Notes under the pieces: generated by a model
Database searches by the model: none
The model's input: only the letters and a program-made list of their open reading frames with translations
Told to the model about the DNA's origin: nothing
In this document: positions 6,601 through 33,586 of the stretch, one piece after another
Numbering within the stretch: the stretch's first letter is position 1
Layout: each line of letters starts with the position of its first letter
Position numbers and translations under genes: made by a program
From: Branchiostoma floridae
Taxonomy: Eukaryota; Chordata; Leptocardii; Amphioxiformes; Branchiostomatidae
Assembly (NCBI RefSeq): GCF_000003815.2
Contig: NC_049981.1
Coordinates: forward strand, 13,075,021-13,139,020
Direction of reading: 5' to 3'
Length of the DNA: 64,000 nt

Positions 6601-9236
6601 TTCGTAATAATAAGAAAGTTTGAAAAGCAAGAAACACTTGACGCACCGAAATCTGGATTGGAGGCGATCTGTTCTCCCCCTCTCTTGTGAGCTTGAGATA
6701 TCTTTTTCGCTCTGATCTCTGCCGTGCCTGAACAAACCAACAAACAAATAAAAGAAATAAACAAAGAGGTGGTACATGTATAATGTTATCCAGACATCTC
6801 TCGTCGGACCACATGTAACGACAGCAAATTTGATATATTCCCGAGATAGTCGTGGACATCGTGTAGATCTATGTCGAGGGTTGTTCTGCATCTGTCCCAG
6901 ATTCGCTGTAAACCCACGTGCACTGTAACAATAGAATACCATTTGGCTCGCCCCTGGGGCGTCGCCAAAAAAGTTGCGATTTTTGTGACTTCTCGCAGTT
7001 TCCTTGGAGTGTGTGGATTCTCATAGATACCTAACAGGACTGCTTTGTGATGGGAGTAAAGGAGGTCGTCTACATCACCATTTTTTACAACCGGGACGAT
7101 GGGCGGTATCAACTTCTGACGAGATTTGACCCATTGCTGACGTCACCCATACATAAAGCCATGTGTCCTTGGGTCAAAGAGCTGAAGATGGATTCCTGTG
7201 ATAACATCTTGTTTCACCATACATACCAGGAAATTCTTTGGCGTATCCTAGCAACGGGACCGCGAGGACCCAACCCAGGACTGCGGAGATGACGAAAGGA
7301 ATCCACCAGGCACCCACCCACCTCAGGTCAGCCGGGGTCAACTCCGACCTGCACGGAGACATAGGTAGAGAGAAGAGAGACGGAAGTAGAATTGTGAAAA
7401 CTGTCAACTATCAAATGGATAACACATGTGATCACAAATATATTATATATAGTTGGCAATATGCACCATGACGTGGTAGATATCTGGCGTTACCACCTAC
7501 GTGACAATGGCCTGCCATGACGGTTAGCTAAACCTAAAAATGCCTTTTAGATTTGGATTTGCAAACGAAATTATAGCCACGTAAATGTAACATTGAACTG
7601 ATTATGCAAAAGTTAATTGTAAAAGGGTTCAACCAAACAGAACAACGGCTGGAATTTCAGGTGCAAACGACACTAGAATTAGGCGCGAAACGTCTGGGGT
7701 GTACGGCTATACGTACCCGTCGTTCCCGATGTCGATGTCAACGAAGAAGTCCAAGAACTGACCTCCAACCAGGTACCCTACGGCAGGGCCGATGGTGGCT
7801 GATGCGTAAAATATCCCTAATGCCCAAATAAAAGTAGTCAGAGATGGTAGACTTCACACCTGCTTTGCGGCCCTACCAGTCCCATAGGTGAGTATGTAAA
7901 ACAGCACTATATATTGTGTCTATGGGGAATTACAAAAACGCATGCGCATAGACAAACACACAGACAAGTCCTAAAGACTTGGGTTGAAGTAAACACAACT
8001 CGTCAGCCATAACTATACTATCTACTAGCTTACAAAACTAGGTTAAGAAGAGCCGCTCTAAATCGTACCTATGTACAGCCCCAAGCTGACCTCGTCCACA
8101 TTTTCGTCCAGATACGCCGGCCCGACAGTGTACAGGGGCGTGGCGCCAAGGCCGTGCAGGAGTTGAGCTGAAAGCCAAATAAAGTCCTTTGAGAATTATA
8201 CGTGAATGTACCATAGGTATACACACGTCAAGACTGCAGGAATGTTGCGTTTTTTTTTCTGTGATCACCCGAGGAGCCTTACATTTCCAGTTTTACGTTT
8301 AGCTACCATCGTTAGGTTACTATGAGATAGGTTTGGCGTTTCAAATTGGGGGCATCCGTTGGGACAATCGTGTATCTGTCGGACATAACTCATCTGTTTT
8401 GTTAAAGAAACAATCATATGATGAAGACCGTCCCTTGGGCCGAATATATTTTTGAATGTCAATGACATCAATTGTAGGTAAGACAACAGCTTAAGACGTT
8501 ACTATATGTATGTTGACTTTATACTATGCGTTCGATGCCATATTGTATATGCGTTTCTAAAAAACGTAACAGATTTACACAGTGCGCAATTTTCACCTAA
8601 AATGAAGACGCCCAAAAAGTACGACAAGGTACTCCCTTCCGCCGTACAATCCGTGCTGGAGGTGGCATTCCCGGTGACGTCACACATATCCGTGGTTCCC
8701 GACCCGTACACGTACGGTCCTGACGCGAAGTGTGGGATGGAGAACAGCATGGCGCCCGTCCCCAGCGCGAAGCTGCCAAACGCCAGCCACTTGGGTTTAC
8801 TGTTGCCCTGCCCTGCGTGATACGACACCACAAGGGCCAGCACCACATACGCGATGTCGTAGCACGCGGCCACGATGCCGGCGTTGTAACTAGACAGTTG
8901 GAACCGCTTCTCTATGGACGTGATGCTGGAGTTCACGTAACCGTTCACCAGCATGCTCTGCACGAAACCGAACAACGAGATGAACACGAGCGCCCCCTTG
9001 GCGTTGTTGCACACCTGTAGATAAAAAAAATGTGGATGTGAACATTTTACAGGGAGGATATGGGATGACAATAACAGAAAATACACCACATTTCATTTGA
9101 CATCATTTGCATGTACATACAGGCAAACAGACACGCACGATACACGCCCACGATACACACACACACACGCACATACAGCACACACACACTTGTACACACA
9201 CGTATAGTGCACACACACACTCACACACACACACTA

Positions 9237-11960: not shown

Positions 11961-12748
11961 TTATGTGCTAATAACAGCGATCTCCGCAGTTGACTCCATC
12001 CTTGTGAGCGTGGTCTGTGTCATCGTCTTGACCATGCCTACAGAAGGTGGCGGCGTGTAGGACATGTACGCTGCCATAAACAGGATACATGCTACCGTCT
12101 TCACGGATAACATCAAGGCGAGAAGGCTGTACCCCATGTGCTGGTTGTCATACTGTAGACACGAGCCCGTCTCACCACACGACTCCCCCCACAACACGCA
12201 GGAGCTGTCCAAGATCGCTCCCAGGATCACCGGCCCGGGGATTGATCCTGAAAGTTTAAAAAAAAAAACACAACAACAGACATGAGCATGATACAACTGA
12301 CTGAACATCAACGTGACAAGCTCTAAATGTCTATAGATATTACTGCTTGTGTGTAGCCATGAGTCAACTATCAATGTTCCCCCAAGCCGTCTACAACTTT
12401 GTACCAGAGCCAAACTACTGCAGTTACCTAAGTATCACATGAGAACATTTCTCATTCATTGTCTCTTCCCTCCTCTCTGCGTATACGTGTGTATATGTGT
12501 GTGTGTGCATTTGTTTGTGTGTGAGCGTGCGTGTGAGTTTGTGTGTGTATATTGTGTTTTCGTGATTATTATCAACAGGTTTTGACTAAAGCATGTATTC
12601 ACCACTGTATAGTGAATTACATTGATCAAAACATTCCCACGTGTCCTGTAATGACCTCTGTAAATCTGACTGAAAGTTCGTACCTATGAGTCTCCCAAAT
12701 ATGTTTTGCACCCCAAGAGAGAACCCCTGCTGGTTATAAGGGACGCAC
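11961..12748 (-). pseudogene. Orphan last two exons of an OATP (gene relic or alternative 3' end of gene A)
   Basis: Two exons equivalent to exons 12 and 13 of gene A: 12684-12748 (65 nt, the same length as in A and B) and 11961-12247 (ends in TAA). They encode QQGFSLGVQNIFGRLIG and then GSIPGPVILG, Cys-rich CGETGSC and a C-tail with PPPSVGMVK resembling gene A. Splice borders are canonical; entry phase 2, middle phase 1, identical to A. No exons equivalent to A exons 1-10 were found between here and gene A. Either the front of a tandem copy was lost, or these exons serve as an alternative 3' end for gene A, whose exon 11 donor (at 15905) is in the right phase. A possible preceding short exon lies at 12934-13006. 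Reading frames are unbroken, so pseudogene is only a working label. Confidence 0.7.
12487..12558. repeat. (GT)n-rich microsatellite
   Basis: Interrupted GT tract on the plus strand, lying in the intron between the two orphan OATP exons. Confidence 0.85.
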
Positions 12749-17200: not shown

Positions 17201-20200
17201 CACGATGAATGCAGCTTACGGGGTAAAGTTTACTGTTTATAAGTGTGTGATGGAGGTCAGAATATTTGTGTGGGCTGCAAAAAAGTTAAACTTTTTTATC
17301 AACAAAAAAAAAAATCGCTTTTGATCTTACCGCAAAGCATGGCGGCCCATCCTGACGTCTGACTAAACTGCATCTCCACAAACTTGGGACCGAATGTGGC
17401 CAGTCCGCTGGTCAGGAAGCCTTCAAACGCACCGGCAAGGCTCACAAACATGAAGGTCGGGTTGAGCAGGAGGATCTTCACAGCGATGGGAAAGTCTCTC
17501 CAACTCTTCCCTGGTGGCAAATATCATACACAGATGTTAGGGAAAAGGCTACTTTTTAGCACGCAAAAGGGATCCTCGTCTAATAGCTGAGAGCTCAATC
17601 AATTGTTCCGAGTACGAAAGGTTGAGCAATGCAGGTCAAAGGTCGTGGGAAGTCGGTATAGTCCCCATCCGAAACAAAGTGTTTCGTTCTCATGGTTACT
17701 TCTCCAATCTTTTTGTGTGTGTGTGTGTGTGTGTGTTTTTTTTCTGCACAGAGCAAGGGCCATCATCACCCGGAACAACACTTTAACAGTTTGACAGTGA
17801 TCTGAGAGCAACGTTCCGACACTATCTTTACATGAGCAATAATGACCACTGTCATCATTGCAAGTATGAAAACAGTTGTACATCTCATTTGAGAGCAATA
17901 ACTATACGTACCAAAGTCCGGTTGAGACGCCACGTCCGCCCCTCCCTTGACGTGTGCCTCAGACTCTTTATTGGCTTTGATTTCTGCCGCACCTACAGTG
18001 GTACATGGAGGATTGTCACATCAGCACGTACCTGGTTGGGGTTTTAAACACTTCTTCATTAAACATTGCTTGTATGCATCCTACCTGTATGGCAGTTGAT
18101 ACAAAATAAGATCTCTGCAATAATTTATTGCCCACTAATACCTAAAAAAAACTAATATTCCATGACACATGCTGTGTGCAATGGTGCCGTCGTAAAAAAA
18201 AAAAAAAAAAAACTTTTTTGGTAACGCCTCAGGGGTGGAGCCTACATTGTTTACCTGGCAGTTCTTTTGGATAGCCGAGGAGGGGAATAGTGATGGACCA
18301 GGCGAGGAAGGTGCACATCAGGAACCCGATCCACCAGGCGCCCACCCACCGCGGATCCGCATCGGTTAGTCCGTCCCTTGTAGGGGTGAACACAGAAAGG
18401 TTTTGTGATAATTGGTCAACTGAGTTGATGGTTAATATTGGAAAAAAACTGAATTCTGATTGTAACGCAACATAACATAATATGACATGACATGATATGA
18501 CATGACATAACATAACACGAAGACTACTAAGACCATGTATGTTTACCCTGTCCGCCCGAGGTCGATGTCAGTGTAGATGTTGAGAAACTGTCCTCCTATC
18601 AGATACCCTGCAGCCGGGCCCAGCGTGGAGGCTGCGTAAAATAATCCTGAAAGCAATAGACTGTATTAAGCAATAATCCAAATACTGAAAAGATGATATC
18701 AAAAGAATATGATATTCTAAGAGGCACACTTCAGTTTAACATTGAATATTGCCATGTGCTTTTATGTATACACCTTATCACTTACCGATATACATCCCTG
18801 AGTTCGTTTTCTCAACGTTTTCGTCCAGGAATGTTGTACCCAGGGTGTACAAGGGTGTGCCACCCACACCGTGGAGCAGCTGGCCTGAAATAGCAAAGGA
18901 GGTCTTATCAATTGAGTGAGACTTGTAGTTACCTCTTCTAAGGTAAACAATCATACTTGAATCAGAAAAAAAACTAACATGACACAGACTAAAAGTTATT
19001 CACCTGAGTAACATTTCGATAACTCCCAGGCTACCAGTGTACCTTCCTCACAGGATCAACTGGATACTACTTCTACTCGCCGCATGGTGGCGCTTTAGCA
19101 AGAATGTGAGCCCAAACGTGACTGAGTCTATACCCCCTCGTCTTAGTTCAGGTGTGGACTGTCTGATCTTGATCCATACACATGTAGCCTTAATCCAAAC
19201 AACTTGATGGATTTATGAACAAAATATTGGCATAAAGAAAAAAATGATCTTACCTAAAATAAAGACGTAGAGATAATTCCTTAGACCAGTGCCTGTGCTG
19301 CCGCTGCTGCAGTCCTGACTGGTGGAGTTCCCGCCGATGTCGCATGTCTCCGTCTGTCCCGTGCCGTACACGTACGGACCGGTGGTGAAGTGAGGCAGGG
19401 AGTAGATCAGGGCTCCCAGACCTAAAGAGAAACTACCGAAGGCTAACCACTTGGGTTTACTGTTGCCCTGCCCGGCGTGAAACGTCACGAACAGCGCCAG
19501 CACCACGAAGGCGATATCGTAACTAGCGGAGACGATGCCTGTATTGGAGCTGGGCAGTTCAAACCTGGTCTCTATGGACGTGATGCTCACATTGACCAAA
19601 CCGTTCACGATGACGCCTTGTGTGAACGAGAACAGGCACAGGAACAACAGGACTCCGTTGGCATTGTTGCAGCACTGGAGATAAAGAGATGATGATAAGA
19701 AAAAGACTTTAAGTGCTGAATGGCTATTTCAAATGGCACGAGGTCATTGAAAGGGAGAGTTCAGAGACCTCTTAACTCCACAGGTTTTCTAAATGTCTTG
19801 TCTCAGCTTGTCTCTTGATTATGCAAACAAAGCTGTAACTAGCATGATCTATCCTAAAATATAGTTTTCTCTACCAAATTGCATATATTGCATGTGTAAC
19901 GGTCCTCTTAATGATTTATTCATGAAGATGCACAACAATAACTTATTAACATATAGTATGAAACTTACATCATTTATAACACTAAGAACCATGACGCTTT
20001 CGCATTAATTGTGCGAGATAGGCCCTTACTTGCATATTTGGTATCTGCAAATGTTCCACCTGCTATAAATTACACCCTCCCCTCCCGTGTACGCTATATG
20101 ACATGCAGTAGATTTCTGGCGAATTGAGTTGACCTCCCTAGAAATCTACTTCATGTCGTTCAGAGCTGAGCCTCCCCTCCCATCCTTCCCGTGCACAAAC

Positions 20201-27775: not shown

Positions 27776-27950
27776 GGTGCCTAAGCATGTGCACGAACCC
27801 TATGAGACTCGTACGAACATTATGTGATACGCACGAATCACTATGCGAAAACGCACGAACCTTATGTGGTTCGCACGAATCACTATGTGACAAACACGAA
27901 CCTTATGCGATCCTTGCACGAACCTTATGCGAAACCGCCCAACCACCGCC
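27776..27950. repeat. Minisatellite of about 22-24 bp units
   Basis: Roughly seven imperfect units built on GCACGAACCTTATGCGA and GCACGAATCACTATG. An open plus-strand frame of about 90 codons runs through it, but it reflects the repeat and has no other support. It ends in ACGTTATTCG half-units. Confidence 0.85.
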
Positions 27951-29099: not shown

Positions 29100-29698
29100 A
29101 TACAGTGTATAGTGAAGAAAAACATTTCAGTACACCTTAATATCGCAATTTGTACAGCAAAGGCTTCTGGTTACAAGAACTTAGTAGACTTTAGACAGCT
29201 AGGCAGCATCAGCTCTTATAACACAACAACTGAACAAAGCTCTTGAAATTACATAAATTACAATGTTCACAGTAAGGGCCAAGCAGACTTGCTAATTTTC
29301 ATTCTAAGTGCTTTCAGTCACAGCACGTGACTATTCCTGTCATATGTCAGCAGTAACATTAAAACATACCACTTACCCCATAACAATTCACAATTTTAAA
29401 TTCCAAAACGTGATGCCTGACGATACCACCTTCCTTTGGTAACTCTCTCAGTCTTGAGTAAGAGATCACATTCCAAGAAGGCACCAGGAACATACTAAAT
29501 ACTAAGAAAGCAAAGAAAACATACAGTTCAACATATCAAAACAGAATATCGCTGTCCGTATTGTATCCCATGTACGAGCTAGGCATGCTTTCTCATCGTT
29601 AGTGTAGGCAACAGAGATTGAAGTTTAGTTTCTGAAATGTTCACGTGATACGAGGGTCAGGATTGGATGTGGCACCTGTTGGTTCCATAACGTCTTTG

Positions 29699-32600
29699 CT
29701 ATACATGGTACATCGTATTTTCCAACCAACGCGTCATGTTGGCATCCGCAGCAATGGAAGTGTCGTCTTCACCCAAAAGCAAGGGTTCTTGATACATGTA
29801 TGTGTGCTGAAGCGGTGTAGGGTTCCCAGTACTGGACACAGGGGACAGTGGCTGGATGTCAGAGGTGACGTATGTACGGGTCCGTGGAAGTGGATCCGCC
29901 GGGATCTCTTCTGTCTGAGTCATCTCCGAGCCTTGTGATTGTGATGATAAGTTAGAGTTAACGTACGTGTGGGTCCGTGAGACTGGATCCGGGATCTCCT
30001 CAGGAGTCGTCTCTGAGTCTTCTTGTTGTAATAAGGCGTTAGAGTAGACATACGTGTGGGTCCGTTGGATTGGATCCGGGATCCATTCTGCTTGGGTCAT
30101 CTCCAAGCCTTGTGGTTGCGATGAAACGTTGGAGTTGACGTAAGTGTGGATCTGTGGAAATGGCTCAGGGATTTCCTCAGCTTTTATCGTCTCTGGGATT
30201 GGTGGGTAGTACGAGCCGCTGATGTTGACTGAATTATTGGACCGTGAAGGTGAATCCGGGACCTCCCCTACCCGAGTTATGTCCGGTTGTAGTGAGGCAC
30301 CGGGGTTGGATCGGGGACAAGGATCTGGGTTGAATGTGGCACCTTTTGGCTCAGTCACGTCTGCGATAAACACGGGATTTTCCAGCAAACGCGTCATTTT
30401 GCCATAAGTAGCAGTAGATGTGTCGTCTTCACCCCAGACCTCTTCAGGTCCGTGCTGAAGCGGTGTAGGATTCCCTGTCGTGGAGACATGGGCGAGTGGC
30501 TGGATGTTAGAGTCAACGTACGTGTGGGTCCGTGGGAGTGGAGCCGCAATCTTTTCTGTCTGAGTCGTCTCCGGGTCTTGTTGTTGTAACAGGACGCTAG
30601 TGTTGACGTATGTGTGGGTCCGTGGGAGTGGAGCCGGGATCTCTTCTTGATGTATCTCCCGGCCTTGTGGTTGTGATGAGAAGTTAGAGTTCACATACGT
30701 GTGGATCCGTGAAAGTGGATCCAGGATTTCTTCTGTCTGAGTCGTCTCCGGGCCTTGATGTTGTAACAGGACGCTAGTGTTGACGTATGTGTGGATCCGT
30801 GGGAGTGGAGCCGGGATTTCTTCTTGAGTCGTCCCCGGGCCTTGCTTTTGTGACAGGACGCTAGAGTTGACGTATGTGTGGGTCCGTGAAAGTGGATCCA
30901 GGATTTCTTCTGTCTGAGTCGTCTCCGGGTCTTGTTGTTGTAACAGGACGCTAGTGTTGACATATGTGTGGATCCGTGGGAGTGGAGCCGGGATTTCTTC
31001 TTGAGTCGTCCCCGGGCCTTGCTTTTGTGACAGGACGCTAGAGTTGACGTATGTGTGGGTCCGTGGGAGTGGAGCCGGGATTTCTTCTGTCTGAGTCGTC
31101 TCCGGGTCTTGTTGTTGTAACAGGACGCTAGTGTTGACGTATGTGTGGATCCGTGGGAGTGGAGCCGGGATTTCTTCTGTCTGAGTCGTCTCCGGGTCTT
31201 GTTGTTGTAACAGGACGCTAGTGTTGACGTATGTATGGGTCCGTGGAAGTGGAGCCGGGATCTCTTCTGCCTGGGTCGTTTCTGGGTCTTGTTGTGGTGG
31301 AAGTGGAGCTGGGATCTTTTCCACCTGAGGTGTCTCCAGACCAGTGACGCGTGATTGGCCCTTGAGGTCAAGATAGGTATTAGAACTGTCGACTACTTCT
31401 TCATCATCATTTTCCAAGCCTTGCGGATCCGATGAAGCCCCTGATGGTGACATCATTCCTTGCATCTCAGAGTCTTGTGGCTGTGGTGAGACGTCAGAGT
31501 TGACGTGCATCTGGGTACCTTGACGTGAATCAGAGATTTCATCTGCTTGAGTCGTTTCCCTGCCTGGCGGGCAGTGCGATAACCTGACGTTGAATGTACT
31601 GTCAGGTCGTGGAGGTGGGATTGGGGCAGCGGGTGAGGAGTCATCGTCGTTCTGAATCTCTTCATGTATGTCTTGCTGAAGCGGTATAGGATTCGTCGAT
31701 GTCGCAGAGACCGGTGGCAGATTATGCTGTAGCGGTCCGCCTCCTATAGCGCCATCAGTATTGTTATGTAAGTGGTGCCTCTCGTAGCACTTGAAGCATG
31801 CGACCATTACCAAACCGAGAAAGACCAGAGCCAGACATGCGCTTGTGGTGTAGACGACTATCATCACGGTGGACTCTTTTGTGTCATCTTCGGGAGTGGT
31901 TCTCTTCTGCTGGGGGTTCATGTCCGTGGAGTTTCTCATTTCTTCCGTTACATCTGTGTGCCACTGGGCAGGCGCTGTTGTGTAGACGGTTGTCACGGTA
32001 GGCTCTAGCATCTCTTCTGCCTCGGTCGTCTCCGTGCCACGTGATTGTGATGAGACGCTAGAGTTGACATACGTGTGGGTCCGTGGAAGTGGAGCCGGGA
32101 TCTCTTCTTGAGTCGTCTCATGACCTTCTGGTTGTGATAGGACGCTAGATTGGACGTACGTGTGTGTCTGTGGGAGTGGATACGGGGCAGGTGCTGTTGT
32201 GTAGATGGTTGTCACGATAGGCTCTTGCATCTGACCTTCACTACTTGCCTCATTTGACACGTTCAATGTCAGATTCACGTCCAAGTCCCACGTCGAGCTC
32301 CATTTTGTCTGCTGCACGATACACCGGAAAACACCTCCCTTCCAGCACCGATAGACTTGCTGACTCATGCTGATAGTGCACGTGGACCTACCGATGTAGG
32401 GTAGTGCCGAGTGTGCCATACCTCTTACAGGAAACTCTGTGATGGGAAACTCGTGCTCCAAACGTGCGGTTACGGCACCGCCGCATTCGCCCTTTCCAAC
32501 AAGGGTCTCTGTTGGGTCCAAACATCTTATGTTCTCTGGCTGCTTCTCCCAGAAGACCTCGCATATGAGAGTGTGTCCGTCATCACGACGTGATACCCTG

Positions 32601-33586
32601 GCTGTCGGCATCGGACAGATCATCTCCTCCACTTCAGCAACCCTTCTCCCTGAGACGCTGGGCGGGTAGCTGCACCTCAGTCTCCTGTAGGTATCTTCAC
32701 CCAGTAGTGCCCTAACCCTAACAGACTTTAGGCTTTTCAAGGCACAGGTGCAGCGCACAGGGTTCTGTTGAAAGTTGATAAACCTCAAACGTTCACCCAT
32801 GGCCGTCAGTTGGTCACCGGGGATGGCCGATATCAGGTTGTGTTGAAAGTTGGCATTCCTCAGAGCGGTCAGCCCTTTTAGCCATTCTGCGTTCAAAGCC
32901 AATAACTTGTTGTGTGCCAAGATGAGGACTTTTAGACTGGAAAGATGATGGAAGCACTTCCCGTCGATGCGTGAGATGCTGTTGTTGTCCAGGTATAGGT
33001 ACACGAGGCTGGTCAGATTTGCGAAGTGCCACTCTTCAATAGCATGGATCCGGTTATGGCTCAGGTAAAGAGACTCAAGCCATATCAGTGGCTGAAAAGC
33101 ATTTTCTTTGATTTCCTCGACTTCATTCCAAGACAGGTAGAGACTTCTCAGCTTTGAAATGCCACCAAACCAGCTTCCAATGGCGCTGATGGCGTTCCTT
33201 CCCAATGCCAGTGTGGTGACGTTTGGCACAGCGGATAGGATTTCATGTCTAACCGTCTGGAGGCGACCAGGCCCCAGAATCAGTGTGTGGAGCTGGGCGA
33301 GACCAGGCAGTGGTTTGAGCACACGGTTGCTGTCGGAGTGTCCCGCGAGTTGCAGCATCTTCAGAGTGTCTGGAAGACACATGAGTTTATTCCCATCCGT
33401 CTCTCCGGTCGTCTTGCAGATTGCACAAGGCAGTGCTGGAGCCGAGAGCCCTCTGGCCAATTCCTCTGGCACCTCGCATGGCTCAGTACGCTTTATTTTA
33501 CAGAGCTCAGGGCAAGATAGCCCAGTCGGAGACGAGCCAAACGCAAAACAGAACACAAGAAAAAGTGAAATCTTCAGGCCAGACAT
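29699..33586 (-). CDS. LRR-Ig single-pass receptor with a tail of tandem HTYVN tyrosine repeats
   Basis: Intronless, 1295 aa. The start at 33586 is chosen because this Met opens a signal peptide (residues 1-24, core LFLVFCFAF) in good context, and the frame upstream offers no ATG. Domains: Cys-rich N-cap (25-70); about eight leucine-rich repeats (93-272, e.g. LRSLYLSWNEVEEI); LRR C-cap NPVRCTCAL (275-325); Ig-like domain (about 330-444, Cys342 with EVFW, Cys422 in GVFRCIV); Thr/Pro stalk with N-glycosylation sites; TM 574-598. The cytoplasmic tail of 695 aa is low-complexity and carries a PIPPPR SH3-type motif (655-660). It has 29-30 residue repeats with HTYVN tyrosines at 786, 816, 846, 875, 905, 934, 964, 993, 1149 and 1208, plus variants at 1023, 1179 and 1239. 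YVN fits the pYxN rule for GRB2 SH2 binding, so the likely role is a signalling receptor of the amphioxus LRR-Ig type. Ligand unknown. No named orthologue is recognised. Confidence 0.9.
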   Translation of the reverse strand: MSGLKISLFLVFCFAFGSSPTGLSCPELCKIKRTEPCEVPEELARGLSAPALPCAICKTTGETDGNKLMCLPDTLKMLQLAGHSDSNRVLKPLPGLAQLHTLILGPGRLQTVRHEILSAVPNVTTLALGRNAISAIGSWFGGISKLRSLYLSWNEVEEIKENAFQPLIWLESLYLSHNRIHAIEEWHFANLTSLVYLYLDNNSISRIDGKCFHHLSSLKVLILAHNKLLALNAEWLKGLTALRNANFQHNLISAIPGDQLTAMGERLRFINFQQNPVRCTCALKSLKSVRVRALLGEDTYRRLRCSYPPSVSGRRVAEVEEMICPMPTARVSRRDDGHTLICEVFWEKQPENIRCLDPTETLVGKGECGGAVTARLEHEFPITEFPVRGMAHSALPYIGRSTCTISMSQQVYRCWKGGVFRCIVQQTKWSSTWDLDVNLTLNVSNEASSEGQMQEPIVTTIYTTAPAPYPLPQTHTYVQSSVLSQPEGHETTQEEIPAPLPRTHTYVNSSVSSQSRGTETTEAEEMLEPTVTTVYTTAPAQWHTDVTEEMRNSTDMNPQQKRTTPEDDTKESTVMIVVYTTSACLALVFLGLVMVACFKCYERHHLHNNTDGAIGGGPLQHNLPPVSATSTNPIPLQQDIHEEIQNDDDSSPAAPIPPPRPDSTFNVRLSHCPPGRETTQADEISDSRQGTQMHVNSDVSPQPQDSEMQGMMSPSGASSDPQGLENDDEEVVDSSNTYLDLKGQSRVTGLETPQVEKIPAPLPPQQDPETTQAEEIPAPLPRTHTYVNTSVLLQQQDPETTQTEEIPAPLPRIHTYVNTSVLLQQQDPETTQTEEIPAPLPRTHTYVNSSVLSQKQGPGTTQEEIPAPLPRIHTYVNTSVLLQQQDPETTQTEEILDPLSRTHTYVNSSVLSQKQGPGTTQEEIPAPLPRIHTYVNTSVLLQHQGPETTQTEEILDPLSRIHTYVNSNFSSQPQGREIHQEEIPAPLPRTHTYVNTSVLLQQQDPETTQTEKIAAPLPRTHTYVDSNIQPLAHVSTTGNPTPLQHGPEEVWGEDDTSTATYGKMTRLLENPVFIADVTEPKGATFNPDPCPRSNPGASLQPDITRVGEVPDSPSRSNNSVNISGSYYPPIPETIKAEEIPEPFPQIHTYVNSNVSSQPQGLEMTQAEWIPDPIQRTHTYVYSNALLQQEDSETTPEEIPDPVSRTHTYVNSNLSSQSQGSEMTQTEEIPADPLPRTRTYVTSDIQPLSPVSSTGNPTPLQHTYMYQEPLLLGEDDTSIAADANMTRWLENTMYHV
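30497..31276 (-). repeat. Coding minisatellite (87/90-bp units) in the receptor tail
   Basis: Nine near-identical units, each encoding a proline segment, (R)THTYVN or RIHTYVN, a Ser/Val/Leu stretch and an acidic Thr/Gln/Glu stretch. Tyrosine spacing is 30,30,29,30,29,30,29,30 residues. Two unit types alternate (QQQDPETTQTEE and QKQGPGTTQEE), a sign of doublet expansion. High identity keeps a second frame open (30691-31371), which is a shadow. More diverged units continue at 29852-30169 and upstream of the membrane span. Confidence 0.93.

Follow-up and report, generated by a model that had tools for sequence, protein, structure and literature searches.

The window, a stretch of 64,000 nucleotides from Branchiostoma floridae, carries on its minus strand (29699–33586) a single stop-to-stop frame of 1322 codons, which encodes 1295 amino acids plus the stop when counted from the first methionine. 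All of the features described below lie on this strand. The protein opens with a signal-peptide-like N-terminus at about residues 1–22 (33521–33586), assigned by hydropathy alone (windows 1–10 at 1.0–1.6), and continues with leucine-rich repeats (LRRs) at about residues 93–290 (32717–33310; Pfam LRR_8, E = 3.5e-29). Its sequence matches in the PDB include IGFALS, LGR4/5, and LRIG1. Beyond the N-terminus there is one strong hydropathy peak, with a maximum of 2.28, and we place a single predicted transmembrane segment there, starting at about residue 574 or 575 and ending at about 597 (31796–31864), the call being made from hydropathy and not by a dedicated predictor. Outside this segment, values of 1.0 or more occur only at the N-terminus and in one window at 215 (1.11). 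The tail that follows the segment is 698 residues long. The ectodomain has an omega of 0.33 against the nearest paralogue, and the gene therefore appears to be maintained.

The Ig-like part, taken together with the end of the LRR C-cap (32219–32617), was delimited on alignment A2 of the gene family, in which C19 and C99 are invariant and W32 is nearly so. The window protein itself has no Pfam match to an Ig domain, even at E up to 5. At the same lax cut-off, Ig_3 is matched by 16 of 19 family members (best E, 0.00034) and I-set by 10 of the 19 (best E, 3.9e-5). The PDB profile matches for this region are mostly Ig-bearing receptors, at weak scores (E 0.078 and up), and a single-sequence AlphaFold2 model of the ectodomain, with a mean pLDDT of 39, is too low in confidence for use. 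Judged from its sequence, the window protein is probably an LRR-Ig single-pass receptor, as the earlier note had described it, with the Ig part assigned by family evidence only.

The tail contains 13 repeat units with a TYV core. Ten of them read YVN (Y786, 816, 846, 875, 905, 934, 964, 993, 1149, and 1208); the other three depart from it (Y1023, YVD; Y1179, YVY; Y1239, YVT), the same count as reported before. The main array (30473–31273) comprises nine units, of which eight read YVN and one reads YVD; TRF places it at 30508–31295 in the DNA, with 84–90% matches between adjacent copies. The other four (YVN, YVY, YVN, and YVT) form a second array (29825–30184). Together, the units take up 386 of the 698 tail residues (55%), so the earlier description of the tail as built almost wholly from repeats was overstated. 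Two further copies, Y477 (YVQ) and Y506 (YVN), lie N-terminal to the transmembrane segment in the stalk (32024–32200), which is outside the cell under the predicted topology. The tail has 11 YxN sites, including the ten YVN, and none of its 13 units has an acidic residue at the five positions before the tyrosine. The PIPPPR motif noted previously is present at residues 655–660 (31607–31624); it is a class II SH3 motif (PxxPxR) that also fits PxxxPR. By eye, the related PDPPPR/PVPPPR occurs in paralogues. A YLDL motif at Y738 (31364–31375), a YxxL-class site, is found in 11 of 20 tabulated tails.

How widely is this design distributed? The earlier note had proposed a search of the tail against Branchiostoma; the search was run within this genome, where it reveals the gene as one of a family. 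The LRR-Ig frame is common to 19 of 20 related stretches fetched from the same genome, and, with the window counted, 15 loci carry YVN units. Among unbroken frames of this one genome, the YVN sites per tail range from 1 to at least 10. The motif pattern has 72 matches genome-wide as compared to 3 for the reversed control, and all 72 fall within the window gene or the fetched family loci (places compared by eye), which argues that the array is not a product of chance. The same holds for 60 of 61 protein matches, the remaining one (C7:8818819-8819112) lying 8–10 kb from the family locus L015. The idea of a motif spread among unrelated genes is thus rejected. In the searched literature, the letters HTYVN do not occur.

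For 96 of 108 units, the closest unit at the DNA level comes from the same subfamily (shuffled mean, 33.8; maximum, 48). Since the repeats cluster in this manner, the arrays were probably amplified separately. The residues flanking the core differ in two of the six subfamilies—TNR in L013/L023 and NRHT in L014—while IHT is common to the other four, and YVN is the consensus in all six. In L009, three IHTNVN units were copied after the tyrosine had been lost.

We next consider selection within the units, with omega estimated by parsimony on the repeat tree for 102 units and for a wider set of 113 that includes weaker ones; the estimates are approximate, as repeats may convert one another, and the detecting profile included the motifs, which biases them towards conservation. 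YVN has an omega of 0.24 in the 102 units (binomial p = 1.1e-5) and 0.37 in the 113, and the tyrosine alone gives 0.16 and 0.28. PxPLPR follows at 0.45, a result that weakens to 0.66 (p = 0.015) once the weaker units are added. The linker is near neutral, at 1.00 and 0.85, respectively. A separate run on 108 units with kappa 2 gave 0.24 for YVN and 0.95 for the linker. The spacer adjoining the tyrosine is likewise constrained (0.47–0.48), and the serine at +3 reached 0.22 in the wider set. The constraint on the asparagine alone falls short of significance (p = 0.09–0.15), and that on the valine is not significant in the wider set (p = 0.15). Purifying selection acts on YVN and, with less force, on PxPLPR.

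Could the array instead be a selfish or neutral protein-coding minisatellite, in which YVN is kept only through young, converted copies? The close match between neighbouring copies in the window would fit such an origin, and so would the two stalk copies, which lie beyond the reach of any SH2 domain. YVN is kept by 84 of 108 cytoplasmic units (14 loci) and equally often, by 13 of 16 units, in frameshifted arrays. Because these off-frame units are evidently too young, they are unfit as a decayed control, and we dropped them from that use; because they keep YVN so often, youth and copy-making explain part of its uniformity. Copying alone is nevertheless insufficient, since the linker is near neutral while YVN is constrained in the same units. 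The variation of the core flanks in two subfamilies, with YVN the consensus in all six, also speaks against it, and only 1 of 4 extracellular copies has YVN, a difference from the cytoplasmic ones that is suggestive (Fisher p = 0.043), with four copies only. We therefore regard a minisatellite without function as unlikely.

A second possibility is that function lies mainly in the proline motif, with the tyrosine secondary, the tail being a PxxxPR array for SH3 domains of the CIN85/CD2AP type, with a role in endocytosis or in membrane-cytoskeleton links. This PxxxPR-type motif, which the earlier note did not mention, fits 85 of 102 family units. The canonical class II form PxxPx[RK] fits 2 of the 102, and a canonical class II reading of the unit is ruled out. 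CIN85 is reported to recognise PxxxPR (PMC2833206; PMC10923291), and PxPLPR fits this class, to which SH3 domains of CIN85 bind. The genome also has CIN85-like SH3 exons on C9 and C12, which are 62% and 60% identical to a typed CIN85 SH3A query. Against these points, the tyrosine is strongly constrained, the PxPLPR signal weakens with the poorer units, and PxxxPR fits only 6 of the 13 units in the window, whose tail has 8 matches in all. A primary role for the proline motif is hence improbable.

The weakest candidate is an inhibitory or decoy receptor whose tail recruits phosphatases in an ITIM-like manner or soaks up GRB2. One LRR receptor of B. belcheri, BbLcLRR, carries ITIM-like sites and is reported to inhibit signalling through the T-cell receptor in Jurkat cells (PMC8211107), and YLDL is YxxL-class, but a motif-pattern scan of the window tail found no ITAM or ITSM and a single ITIM-pattern match (SYYPPI, residue 1125) outside the units, so we give this reading little weight. 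The tail may still act as a GRB2 sink. With none of the three motifs in the units, an ITAM, ITIM, or ITSM interpretation of the units themselves is ruled out.

Multivalent docking of the GRB2 type, as the earlier note had put forward, is the best reading, because selection preserves the tyrosine and YVN in arrays that group by subfamily and because the genome encodes GRB2 with its specificity tryptophan (exons with FLWVVKFNS and FLIRES). This tryptophan of the GRB2 SH2 domain reads pYxN. The absence of acidic residues before the tyrosine counts against the proposal, as a setting of this kind is unfavourable to many tyrosine kinases, especially those of the Syk/ZAP-70 type. Grb2-family SH2 domains are reported to bind pYxN (PMC6669380). 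On balance we favour, with some reserve, a cell-surface LRR-Ig receptor whose tail would be a built-in multivalent GRB2 scaffold, similar in action to LAT or LAX.

Such a receptor could work in the following manner. First, ligand clustering would lead a Src-family kinase to phosphorylate the YVN tyrosines. Each pYVN would then bind one GRB2-family SH2 domain, and GRB2 with its SH3 partners would cross-link the tails into clusters, as in the model in which Grb2-SOS1-Grb2 cross-linking drives LAT to gel (PMC3291652). Finally, the clusters may feed into Ras signalling or into actin-based responses, uptake among them. PxxxPR beside many of the YVN sites may meanwhile hold CIN85/CD2AP-type SH3 proteins constitutively.

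LRIG-type receptors share the order of LRRs, Ig, and one transmembrane segment, and LRIG1 is matched through its LRRs; to our knowledge, they have no such repeat tail. LAT, LAB (NTAL), and LAX are not known to have LRRs or Ig domains outside the cell, or to carry their sites as tandem repeats. They resemble the window protein, in its proposed mechanism only, as transmembrane proteins with several YxN-type Grb2 sites, and differ from its ten sites on a receptor-like chain: LAT is reported to have three, LAB three distal ones, and LAX five (PMC3291652). SLP-65 (BLNK) combines PxxxPR-type motifs and tyrosine sites on one chain, as does the window tail. It is not a transmembrane receptor, and its motifs are not known to form a fixed repeated pair. 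With CIN85, this disordered chain, which has several motifs of each kind, is described as forming condensates (PMC10923291).

Reports on two lancelet LRR receptors also lend support to the scaffold reading. BbLcLRR is, like the window protein, a transmembrane receptor, and it is tyrosine-phosphorylated by Lck in Jurkat T cells; compared by its description, it differs in being 699 residues long with ITIM-like DDYATV, HDYSEV, and HDYDDP, and the text of that paper has no word beginning with "yvn" (PMC8211107). FrLRR was represented by one peptide in a Grb2 precipitate from B. belcheri gut cells, and Grb2 knockdown inhibits FrLRR-mediated uptake of bacteria (PMC10199209). This LRR receptor is thereby linked to Grb2 and bacterial uptake, but it has a predicted GPI anchor and no tail, and its route to Grb2 is described as not known to the authors (PMC10199209).

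We tentatively extend the scaffold proposal: the receptor may serve as its own LAT and SLP-65, each unit pairing a constitutive PxxxPR with a phospho-switched YVN. Selection would have amplified this pair repeatedly in separate subfamilies, and array length would set the condensate threshold beneath an LRR-Ig sensor of pathogen or self. If so, the valence that vertebrate lymphocytes split over LAT and SLP-65 would here be built into one receptor chain. The family's own range in YVN number, from 1 to at least 10, would make the relation between docking-site number and signalling threshold testable with natural variants, and the family would supply tailed candidates for the partner that links the tail-less FrLRR of amphioxus to Grb2.

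The window gene is a single open frame on the minus strand (29699-33586) encoding 1295 residues. From a signal-peptide-like start, the protein proceeds through leucine-rich repeats (LRR_8, E 3.5e-29), an Ig-like region, a stalk and one transmembrane segment near residues 574-597 to a C-terminal tail of 698 residues. Thirteen units of 29-30 residues, each with a TYV core, take up 386 of the 698 tail residues. Ten of the cores read YVN and the other three read YVD, YVY and YVT, exactly the count of ten sites and three variants claimed in the earlier note. Two additional units, at Y477 and Y506, lie N-terminal to the transmembrane segment. Searched alone, the Ig-like region gave no recognised domain match, and a single-sequence structure model was unusable. 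At a lax cut-off (E ≤5), Ig_3 is matched by 16 of the 19 family members, with a best E of 0.00034, and I-set by 10 of them, with a best E of 3.9e-5; two cysteines of the region are invariant across the family, and one tryptophan is nearly so.

Elsewhere in the window, three minus-strand exons match OATP (organic anion transporter polypeptide): 8505-9092 (E 3.5e-32), 11964-12434 (E 1.4e-14) and 19213-19728 (E 5.8e-33). Two of the three align with the beginning of the profile, pointing to two adjacent copies of the gene. A tandem repeat with a period of about 20-42 bp (27791-27938) lies downstream of the receptor gene.

A protein search of the same genome with the window gene returned at least 78 matching stretches, several per gene (a lower bound, with 36 of 1864 first-look candidates scored). 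We fetched 20 stretches (loci L009-L028), leaving out weaker LRR-only matches. Counting the window gene, a frame with the Ig-like signature is present in 20 of 21 loci, the exception being L026. The nearest paralogue, L009, sits on the same contig at a distance of 6 Mb and is 77% identical across 1003 residues; its array is interrupted by a run of N. The C-terminal ends of these two proteins show a small shift: the window frame ends in NTMYHV and a stop (29690-29720, minus strand), while L009 runs on into NTMYSKDIAEPKG at the same place. Scanning the 21 loci with a repeat profile yielded 151 units at ≥5 bits and 129 usable units at ≥20 bits. The latter comprise 4 extracellular units, 16 out of frame, 1 past a stop and 108 classed as cytoplasmic (14 loci), on the assumptions that the L009 units past the N run share the tail and that the L020 tail frame is part of that receptor. 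L017, with shifted units only, brings the loci with units to 15. In L014 and L017, reading-frame changes inside the repeats interrupt the arrays, by assembly error or real breakage.

Selection within the unit was measured by counting changes by parsimony on a tree of units, for sets of 102 and, with weaker units included, 113; the detecting profile includes the tested motifs and is thus biased towards conservation. In the smaller set, YVN shows 18 nonsynonymous and 22 synonymous changes (omega 0.24, p 1.1e-5), as compared to omega 1.00 for the linker; in the larger set, the values are 0.37 (p 6e-4) and 0.85. The contrast between motif and linker therefore holds for YVN, though it is weaker once the weaker units join. 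For the smaller and larger sets, respectively, omega is 0.16 and 0.28 for the tyrosine alone, 0.29 (p 0.039) and 0.50 (p 0.15) for the valine, 0.36 (p 0.15) and 0.33 (p 0.09) for the asparagine, and 0.31 and 0.22 for the serine at +3. PxPLPR (0.45, p 8e-5; 0.66, p 0.015) and the spacer (0.47; 0.48) are similarly constrained, indicating that the whole block from PxPLPR to YVNS is constrained, rather than two sharply separate motifs. Within-array spacings are mostly 28-34 residues, which argues that the profile missed few units. Out-of-frame units were no help as a control, since 13 of 16 still keep YVN, no fewer than the cytoplasmic units (84 of 108); the shifted arrays thus broke recently. The extracellular copies differ in the expected direction (1 of 4 keeps YVN; Fisher p 0.043), on few copies.

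The number of YVN sites varies widely among tails. In frames unbroken from the ectodomain, the window gene has 10, L013 has 8, L023 has 6, L010, L011 and L012 have 5 each, L016 and L018 have 4 each, L019 has 2 and L021 has 1. L009 has 8 ahead of its N run, and L014 has 4 ahead of its frameshift. The ectodomain-continuous frames of L015, L017, L020, L022, L024, L025, L027 and L028 have none, those of L020 and L017 being cut by N and by a frameshift, respectively. On the ectodomain tree, which is midpoint-rooted and places L021 on a long branch flagged as unsure by the program, L022, L024, L027 and L028 group together as a clade, with L021 branching first among the remaining loci. A single YVN site may therefore have preceded the arrays. 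By eye, a GGEGTSRDCSTIK-like repeat recurs about ten times in tandem in the L021 ectodomain stalk, ahead of the transmembrane segment. In the sister clade of L022, L024, L027 and L028, the YVN-less tails each have two or three copies of NPxY, usually in the form NPQY (as in VFLNPQYG), and motif multiplication in tails may thus be more widespread among these receptors.

Units cluster by subfamily, as defined by us from the ectodomain tree, with L026 assigned by its repeats. For 96 of 108 units, the nearest DNA neighbour belongs to the unit's own subfamily, against a mean of 33.8 and a maximum of 48 when labels are shuffled; for 69 units it comes from the same locus. The window pair has the consensus unit PAPLPRIHTYVNSSVLSQ, L013/L023/L026 have PDPLPRTNRYVNSNVSS and the loci on C4 have PDPLPRIHTYVNSNVTSQPRG, and the L014 unit has one residue more (NRHTYVN); IHT precedes the tyrosine in four of the six subfamily consensuses. 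These sequence relationships make it likely that the arrays were amplified separately in the subfamilies, and gene conversion within loci could yield the identical pattern.

Candidate partners are encoded in the same genome. Two GRB2 SH2 exons on contig C13 (20247782-20247907 and 20248659-20248823) show 76% and 78% identity, respectively, to the query sequence and contain FLIRES and FLWVVKFNS. The GRB2 SH2 tryptophan favours pYxN. Grb2-family SH2 domains are described as binding pYxN (PMC6669380). Exons resembling CIN85 SH3A occur at C9:12786380 (62% identity) and C12:18953354 (60%), with more SH3 exons within a few kb; these are matches at the level of single exons. PXXXPR is reportedly recognised by CIN85 SH3 domains, which no longer bind it when the first proline is changed (PMC2833206). 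PxxxPR fits 85 of the 102 units, 68 of which also have YVN, and the canonical PxxPx[RK] fits 2. The pairing is less complete among the window units, 6 of 13 having both motifs, which makes the boldest reading, a unit that would pair a constitutive SH3 site with a phospho-switched YVN, slightly less probable.

Multivalent Grb2 docking is already known: LAT has three such sites, LAB three distal ones and LAX five (PMC3291652). The window receptor would share this property, but differs in having its putative sites repeated in tandem along an LRR-Ig chain. No receptor with such an array was found among the matches listed, judged by titles and abstract openings, with subscription literature mostly outside. 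Large amphioxus LRR-Ig sets were reportedly described in a 2008 genome survey. What appears to be new here is the tandem arrangement of putative GRB2 docking sites on an LRR-Ig receptor.

In the mechanism we propose, ligand would drive receptor clustering, a Src-family kinase would phosphorylate the tail, GRB2 would be recruited at several sites, and GRB2 with its SH3 partners would cross-link the tails. The present data reach only the sequence, family and selection steps of this putative scaffold. None of the 13 window units has an acidic residue among the five positions ahead of the tyrosine, which counts against the mechanism. There are lancelet precedents for parts of it. A B. belcheri LRR receptor is described as being phosphorylated by Lck in Jurkat cells (PMC8211107). 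Grb2 knockdown is described as inhibiting FrLRR-mediated bacterial uptake; FrLRR is tail-less, and the authors of that study therefore propose a mediator (PMC10199209). We speculate that the window-gene family might supply this mediator between FrLRR and Grb2.
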